Of a stretch of 21,163 nt of DNA, positions 9,202 through 9,795 are shown piece by piece. A program made the position numbers and the translations under genes. The DNA comes from a virus, in IMG/VR virus record IMGVR_UViG_3300027881_000104, positions 1-21,163 of that record; one strand, given 5' to 3'. Each line of letters starts with the position of its first letter. Position 1 is the first letter of the stretch. The notes beneath the pieces are model-generated. The model saw only the letters and a list, made by a program, of their open reading frames with translations. It had not been told where the DNA came from and searched no databases.

Positions 9202-9277
9202 GGCTCGTTAGCTCAGTGGTAGAGCAAGCGCCTCTAAAACGTATGTGTCCAGGGTTCGATTCCCTGACGAGCCTCCA
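9202..9277 (+). tRNA. tRNA with CTA anticodon (putative amber suppressor)
   Basis: Acceptor GGCTCGT pairs with ACGAGCC, T8 A9 are present, the D-arm is GCTC/GAGC, the T-arm is CAGGG/CCCTG with TTCGATT, and TCCA ends it. By position the anticodon loop is CTCTAAA, giving T33, anticodon CTA and A37. The anticodon stem is poor (AGCGC against ACGTA, with mismatches at 27-43 and 31-39), so function is uncertain. A CTA anticodon would read UAG. Confidence 0.8.
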
Positions 9278-9340
9278 AATTTATGAACTATGAGAAATAT
9301 GCAAAAATCATTGGCTGGTCATTTTTTGGCTTGCTTTGTG

Positions 9341-9349
9341 TGCTACAAT
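9341..9349 (+). promoter_or_regulatory. Extended -10 promoter (TGcTACAAT)
   Basis: TG at 9341-9342, one base, then TACAAT 9344-9349, with no good -35. It would start transcription just before the ORF at 9387. Confidence 0.4.
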
Positions 9350-9386
9350 TGTGGCAATGGTTAAATTTATGAAAAGGGAAAGTAAA

Positions 9387-9719
9387 ATGACAAAAAGAAA
9401 AGAAGTATATGCAGCAATTGACAGCGAGAGAGATTATCAAGACAATTTGAAGAAAGATCGTACATCGAATCCTACTGACGGCACACGCAGTATTGACCAT
9501 ACAGTAGGTGATTTTGTAACAATGATGCAGCAATACCAAAACAATTTGGTTGCTGCATGGACAAATAATCCAGGTGACCAAGAGGCAATGGAAGTAATGC
9601 GTAAAATTGGTGGCATTGCCGTTAATTGCATGGAACAGCATGGCGCGCCACATCGTGTGGCTCCTGAAAAGCTACCGCAGGCCAATCTCAACAAACGTAG
9701 ATATGGTTCGAGAAGATAA
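9387..9719 (+). CDS. Possible MazG-like helical protein (110 aa)
   Basis: The start chosen is ATG at 9387 (MTKRKEV) because AGGGAAAG lies seven bases upstream; ATG at 9369 and TTG at 9336 are earlier in-frame choices. The product is helical, with AAIDSERDYQDN at the start, HTVGDFVTMMQQYQNNLVAAW in the middle and IGGIAVNCMEQHGAPHR near the end. This order (E-R-xY-Q, then a helix with regularly placed acidic or polar residues, then A-V-x-C-M-E-x-H-G) recalls small MazG-like nucleotide pyrophosphohydrolases of phages, though the full E-x-x-E metal set is not evident. Function is tentative. It lies between two CTA tRNAs. Confidence 0.7.
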   Translation: MTKRKEVYAAIDSERDYQDNLKKDRTSNPTDGTRSIDHTVGDFVTMMQQYQNNLVAAWTNNPGDQEAMEVMRKIGGIAVNCMEQHGAPHRVAPEKLPQANLNKRRYGSRR

Positions 9720-9723
9720 TTTT

Positions 9724-9795
9724 GCTGACGCGCTGCTGGGCAGATAGGAGTTTCTAAAGCTCTGATTGAGGGTTCGAATCCCTCCGTCAGCGCCA
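9724..9795 (+). tRNA. Second tRNA with CTA anticodon (putative amber suppressor)
   Basis: Acceptor GCTGACG/CGTCAGC, T-arm GAGGG/CCCTC with TTCGAAT, and GCCA at the end are perfect. The anticodon stem GGAGT/GCTCT (two G-T pairs) encloses TTCTAAA, so the anticodon is CTA. The D-arm is reduced (CTGC, three-base loop, GCAG) and position 8 is C, so the molecule is atypical. Confidence 0.75.

Follow-up and report, generated by a model that had tools for sequence, protein, structure and literature searches.

The window analysed here is the complete IMG/VR record IMGVR_UViG_3300027881_000104, a genome fragment of 21,163 bases that carries two tRNA genes with CTA anticodons. Between the second of these and a gene for a 179-amino-acid protein at position 10090 lies a leader open reading frame (ORF) of 11 codons whose third codon is UAG. 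Its sequence and predicted folding make it very probable that this leader is a translational on-switch gated by nonsense suppression through the phage's own tRNAs. In a cell without the phage tRNAs, release factor 1 would terminate the leader at the UAG, and the last leader codons and stop codon would remain paired with the Shine-Dalgarno sequence of the next gene, keeping the gene at 10090 off. Where the phage CUA tRNAs read the UAG, ribosomes would reach the leader end, open the helix and free the start site, and the nascent R-x-P end, with a stop codon in the ribosomal A site, may hold ribosomes there and keep the start site open, so that the 179-amino-acid protein would be made. We infer that UAG is read in vivo, that the direction is on and that ribosomes stall at the leader end.

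The features concerned are the following (positions in the window, all on the plus strand):
9202..9277, +, tRNA type 1, CTA anticodon; acceptor GGCUCGU/ACGAGCC, U73, CCA encoded
9724..9795, +, tRNA type 2, CTA anticodon; short D arm, CCA encoded
9974..9979, +, leader Shine-Dalgarno sequence, AAGGAG
9987..10019, +, putative UAG-gated leader ORF, 11 codons, ATG TTG TAG AAC AAT TCA ATA CGC GGT CCC TAA
9993..9995, +, in-frame UAG, codon 3, invariant in the clade
10015..10022, +, predicted masking helix, 5' arm (CCTAATAA): final codon and stop of the leader plus 3 nucleotides (nt)
10026..10064, +, nested hairpin GTTGTTTG ... CAAACAAC between the helix arms, inner part GAGC-ATTC-GCTC
10073..10080, +, predicted masking helix, 3' arm (TTATTAGG), overlapping the start of the downstream gene's Shine-Dalgarno sequence
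10090..10629, +, predicted leader-controlled gene, 179-amino-acid protein

The leader, its predicted masking helix and the CTA-anticodon tRNAs

The leader peptide of the window is M L [UAG] N N S I R G P stop, encoded by a short ORF that has its own Shine-Dalgarno sequence and lies directly 5' of the gene it is predicted to regulate. Seven clade sequences (the window and six others) share the arrangement ATG-x-TAG-xxxx-R-(G/P)-P-TAA at the same place, before the same gene. The other six leaders, each closed by a stop codon, read MT[UAG]NNYIRGP, MT[UAG]INAIRGP, MT[UAG]TNLIRGP, MT[UAG]VYFIRGP, MT[UAG]INSIRGP and MT[UAG]SYQQRPP. Among the members ending in IRGP, all five substitutions in the I-R-G codons are synonymous (ATA/ATT, CGC/CGT/AGA, GGT/GGC), which points to selection on the peptide beyond the UAG. 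One contig (G023, L125) has a second short ORF directly before its leader, about 80 nt upstream, again with UAG at codon 3, which reads MT[UAG] NVYDQTLDDYGLTPN and then a stop.

At the end of the leader, CCTAATAA is the perfect complement of TTATTAGG at the downstream Shine-Dalgarno sequence, and the pairing survives sequence change, as CCTTAAATG/CATTTAAGG in one relative (L003) and CCTAATT/AATTAGG in another (L018). We folded 13 leaders. In 13/13 the start site was largely masked in the free RNA and remained so when a ribosome was placed at the UAG; placing it at the leader end made the site freer. The pairing of each leader end with its cognate Shine-Dalgarno region had a mean of -12.1 kcal/mol, compared with -7.6 kcal/mol when partners were swapped, and 0/20000 permutations were as good as the observed sum, likewise with one leader per lineage. 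Masking of the start site and its release by a ribosome at the leader end are thus predictions that covariation supports.

The preliminary description of this DNA had reported two CTA-anticodon tRNAs, and ARAGORN calls exactly two, at 9202-9277 and 9724-9795, both with CTA. They score 55 and 33 bits, respectively, with the Rfam tRNA model (gathering cut-off 29). Type 1 is syntenic in the relatives L003, L007-L010, L015, L016, L018-L020 and L061, and type 2 in L003, L008, L010, L015, L016 and L061. In type 1, 19/21 tRNA pairs are kept in 6/6 sequences, compensatory changes included; its anticodon stem is reduced to 3 bp, as positions 27-43 and 31-39 never form standard pairs (6/6 sequences) while their bases vary. 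A mispaired 27-43 has been reported to improve reading of UAG and UGA (PMC13092985). Judged by sequence, a CTA anticodon in an otherwise intact tRNA is present here, as in amber suppressors. The only tRNAs detected in the clade contigs are these two CTA types, besides three insert-bearing tRNA-like RNAs; the more distant relatives G011 and G013 have some 33 tRNAs apiece.

The three tRNA-like RNAs, which ARAGORN misses, stand in tandem at 10637-10819, 10826-11008 and 11012-11163 of the window. They have tRNA-like acceptor, D and T arms, CCA ends and an insert of about 100 nt, apparently in the anticodon and variable regions. They are conserved, together with a motif like GGTCGGTAAAGC...GGATTACGGCCAACAATC...AAACC, in L003, L008, L010 and L015, and are absent from L018. 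No Rfam family except tRNA matches them, and the matches that a degenerate pattern returned outside the clade were judged to be chance. Phage XacN1 has a similar-looking sequence 3' of its own CTA tRNAs.

The phage itself is a RaK2/PA5oct-like jumbo phage, of which the window is a 21 kb fragment. Its products include UvsX, UvsY, helicase proteins and a single-strand binding protein of the gp32 kind. For one window protein the best match among isolates is in the PA5oct group (44% identity), with RaK2-like jumbo phages next, and close relatives are found among other metagenomic contigs. Just upstream of the tRNAs are genes for a SET-domain protein (8445-8834) and a DUF4326 protein (8831-9085).

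Recurrence in other phages

We scanned 2.9 million IMG/VR viral contigs for a pattern consisting of a Shine-Dalgarno sequence, ATG, any codon, TAG, four codons, an R-(G/P)-P-like end and TAA, ignoring tRNAs. Outside the clade this returned six new lineages: MT[UAG]VNQQRPP (L101), MT[UAG]VSRIRPP (L102), ML[UAG]EISRSPP (L103), MK[UAG]ISNRSPP (L105/L106), MT[UAG]WYYIRGP (L107) and MM[UAG]VFNNRPP (L108). Each has a CTA tRNA in its locus (for L105/L106, in L106). A further match, L104, has no CTA tRNA and is the only probable chance match. The bodies of the CTA tRNAs differ between phages and are unrelated, so it probably makes little difference which amino acid is inserted. In the gene that follows the L108 leader (L116 17923-18600, G024), residue 32 is followed by an in-frame TGA, and the family motif RHMHVAYSLLKG goes on past it; the TGA may be a break or a second gate.

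As a control, TAA or TGA was put in place of TAG in the pattern. This gave 13 loci; no tRNA was present in any of the loci retrieved, and L138 alone had a suitable gene downstream. L138 is an opal leader, ML[UGA]VYLQRPP, masked likewise, and its 185 kb phage has two tRNAs with UCA anticodons (TCA) and no CTA tRNA; with about 50 tRNAs in that phage, the TCA tRNAs are weaker evidence than they would be in a tRNA-poor phage. The leader stop matches the anticodon of the suppressor, UAG with CUA and, in one case, UGA with UCA. Under a looser definition, 2.36 Mb of sequence, a set enriched for TAG-pattern loci, yielded 18 leaders that have TAG and a downstream gene, a single one with TGA and none with TAA. 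A first pattern had no match in bacterial genomes; the wider TAG pattern had 13 matches in 257 Gb of bacterial and archaeal genomes, none with a CTA tRNA or a downstream gene, and these were chance matches only.

Leaders of this kind are also present in cultured phages. The authors who described Summit found no target for its suppressor tRNA (PMC9022506), and we expected a leader near that tRNA before inspecting the sequence. It was found there: ATG AAG TAG GTC TAC AAG CCG CCG TAA, followed by CPT_Summit_069 and then by the CTA tRNA. DLP3 and DLP5 have the Summit leader with CCG changed to CCC, and the peptide of all three is MK[UAG]VYKPP. The DLP3 suppressor is labelled tRNA-Glu in GenBank (MT110073.1, 49181-49254); ARAGORN gives it a CTA anticodon, as does the DLP3 paper, which lists a Sup-CTA (PMC7326821). 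A search with the Summit_069 protein, blind to tRNAs and leaders, returned few further groups: DSS3_MAL1 (MAL1), OLIVR1-3 and NCTB, and BUCT-ZZ01 by way of NCTB. DSS3_MAL1 has the leader MKS[UAG]IRPPP with a CTA tRNA just upstream; OLIVR1-3 have VIEPL[UAG]IKKPP and a tRNA with an 8-nt anticodon loop containing CTA; and BUCT-ZZ01, whose host is Synechococcus elongatus PCC 7942, has MGGDAS[UAG]INLKPP, again with a CTA tRNA just upstream. In Summit, DLP3, DLP5, DSS3_MAL1, OLIVR1 and BUCT-ZZ01 a CTA-type tRNA adjoins the leader, and the start site is predicted to be masked by pairing in all six.

NCTB has the downstream protein with no tRNAs and no UAG leader. Upstream in NCTB (LT598654.1; L181 2395-2450) is an RGPP-coding stretch whose start codon is in frame only through a frameshift at a UGA, possibly a leader that is gated differently. 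No leader was present in eight RaK2/PA5oct-like or other jumbo isolates, and pattern matches in Phosso and Atu_ph07 were not valid leaders.

The downstream protein of the window is conserved within its clade, while those of Summit, MAL1, OLIVR, BUCT, NCTB, L101, L102 and L103 form one family with the motif LKxKxKxLAxExRxIR ... HRxxxVRxEARxTHIAYGxLRGKTxxQIE (Summit_069 family). Homology between the two was considered but is not claimed, as profile comparison gave a probability of 0.2% and only a local YxxLRG likeness. The window protein has no Pfam match, and no member tested had a convincing PHROG match; there was no plasmid match. AlphaFold models of downstream proteins are mostly helical (mean pLDDT, the predicted local distance difference test, 80 and 86), with no significant match in the PDB. 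Our guess is that the protein is an auxiliary of suppression or a product wanted only late in infection.

Taken across these lineages, the sequences make it likely that the phage-encoded suppressor tRNA serves unrelated phages as a licensing signal, with a short leader gated by the anticodon-matched stop codon (UAG/CUA or UGA/UCA) that would allow one small protein to be made only where altered decoding is active.

Alternative explanations

The leader ends IRGP, IRPP, QRPP, NRPP and RSPP all have a C-terminal R-x-P with proline or a stop codon in the A site, as in RAPP-like arrest peptides; in Summit, OLIVR1 and BUCT-ZZ01 lysine replaces the arginine, and the R-x-P ends of distant matches were partly imposed by the search pattern. 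In R-G-P, R-P-P and R-S-P-P ends the arginine lies two residues before the residue in the ribosomal P site, as it does in the RAPP/RGPP motifs, which arrest ribosomes in many contexts (PMC12992588).

A different account of the same nucleotides is that the UAG is the true terminator of a two-residue mini-ORF and is never read, that the conserved nucleotides after it form only an anti-Shine-Dalgarno hairpin, and that the CTA tRNAs serve another purpose. In favour of such a mini-ORF, CCNCCNTAA resembles an anti-Shine-Dalgarno sequence and, in the window clade, the codons for proline and stop lie partly inside the masking helix. It does not account for the I-R-G codons, which lie outside the helix and change synonymously only, even from CGC to AGA. 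Nor does it account for the two proline codons of Summit, DLP5, MAL1 and OLIVR1, which are kept though outside the helix; as the masking helix of Summit, MAL1 and OLIVR1 lies 3' of the leader stop, pairing alone cannot explain them. Every leader lineage has a CTA tRNA, and the phage with the UGA leader has tRNAs whose anticodon is UCA; the lack of TAA leaders in the 2.36 Mb, read with the enrichment of that set in mind, also argues against an unread UAG. We regard the mini-ORF as an improbable explanation.

The same switch could also work with the opposite sign or output, so that reading of the UAG leads to a stall at R-x-P-stop and the operon is repressed or attenuated. A stalled ribosome can have a blocking as well as an opening effect, and RAPP-like ends arrest strongly (PMC12992588). 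Against this, the distance from the leader stop to the gene's Shine-Dalgarno sequence is about 50-60 nt; as that sequence is outside the footprint of a stalled ribosome and is predicted to be masked when the leader is free, an on-switch is favoured. We give repression a distinctly low probability.

Genome-wide recoding, with UAG as a sense codon read by the tRNAs as in code-15 crAss-like and jumbo phages, is very unlikely and is already refuted for the contigs analysed. CTA tRNAs usually accompany UAG recoding (PMC13037316), and TAG stops are indeed infrequent, as the preliminary description had said: of the 23-24 genes called in the window 1 ends in TAG, as do 27/348 (7.8%) over ten clade contigs, a frequency that is low but not extraordinary. 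Treating TAG as sense rather than stop, however, made no material difference to coding density or mean gene length, whether in the window or in the other contigs that bear leaders, related or not, and another stop codon or the next gene commonly comes soon after a TAG stop. In-frame TAG in many genes, with coding density that rises when TAG is sense, as in code 15, was not seen; TAG is a rare but working stop. Read-through of one gene (in G004) into a 168-amino-acid extension was considered and rejected, since the G003 and G005 homologues terminate at the same residue. The earlier statement that genes contain no in-frame TAG holds for long genes but not for the short leader ORF at 9987-10019, where the TAG is conserved. 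Its suggestion that UAG is read in a few of the phage's own genes pointed in the right direction, but the best-supported target is not a late structural gene elsewhere; it is a putative regulatory leader 198 nt downstream of the second tRNA.

That the CTA tRNAs are tRNA-Pyl and the leader senses pyrrolysine is barely credible: ARAGORN labels CTA anticodons tRNA-Pyl, and the D arm is short in type 2. The marks of tRNA-Pyl are a 6-bp anticodon stem, a 3-nt variable loop and a small D loop; in type 1, however, the D arm is normal and there is no 6-bp anticodon stem, the variable loop of type 2 is 4-5 nt, the CTA tRNA bodies are unrelated among phages, and hosts such as S. maltophilia or S. elongatus are not known to use pyrrolysine.

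Several points weigh against an on-switch gated by suppression, or limit its reach. The window is only a 21 kb fragment. The search pattern itself fixed the leader length and the R..P-stop residues of the distant IMG/VR matches, so that in these only the tRNA, the masking and the downstream gene are independent features. The pairing in L102 is weak (-4.7 kcal/mol). OLIVR1 has a GTG start and an 8-nt anticodon loop, which make its codon assignment less sure. XacN1, for whose suppressor tRNAs the original authors found no target (PMC5852040), has two CTA tRNAs and no such leader within the 80 kb searched; it does not follow, therefore, that every phage suppressor serves a leader of this kind.

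Relation to known systems and implications

Like ermC, secM-secA, tnaC and RAPP-type ApdA/ApdP, the system has a short leader ORF with its own Shine-Dalgarno sequence, and as in other arrest- and leader-peptide switches a ribosome at the leader end is predicted to unmask the start site of the gene that follows; the C-terminal R-x-P(-P) is that of RAPP/RAGP. It differs from these switches in that its input would be the reading of an early leader stop codon, where the others respond to drugs, secretion defects or amino acids, and in that the leader has only about 9-14 codons and its stalling is a prediction. As in crAss-like, Lak and code 15 phages, a phage CTA tRNA would alter UAG decoding during infection, and in stop-recoding phages theta ribozymes adjoin suppressor tRNAs (PMC10879173). 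Unlike in recoding phages, UAG remains a stop in ordinary genes, and the clear conserved target is one putative regulatory leader. The orphan suppressors of Summit (PMC9022506), DLP3 (PMC7326821) and XacN1 (PMC5852040) are similar in that a CTA tRNA is present and TAG is not recoded; a target can now be proposed for Summit, DLP3 and DLP5, but none for XacN1.

In synthetic expanded-code UAG switches, too, a suppressor tRNA reading UAG turns expression on (PMC4419535, PMC6412442), as is proposed here. Those are man-made, whereas the window switch would be natural, with an mRNA helix coupling the leader to the gene. In the open-access literature searched, we found no natural switch with nonsense suppression as its input, only these engineered ones. 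Each component is known by itself, be it the leader switch, the arrest end or the suppressor tRNA; what appears to be new is their combination with nonsense suppression as the input.

If this is true, the leaders would constitute a natural regulatory class with nonsense suppression as its input and would give a purpose to many orphan suppressor tRNAs. Summit and several other isolates would gain a concrete candidate target, one that comes into view only if mini-ORFs with a stop codon in third position are taken into account. As such leaders occur in phages of culturable hosts, for example S. elongatus PCC 7942, the proposal is directly testable. A stop-gated leader followed by a small gene may also serve as a marker that predicts which stop codon a phage tRNA reads.
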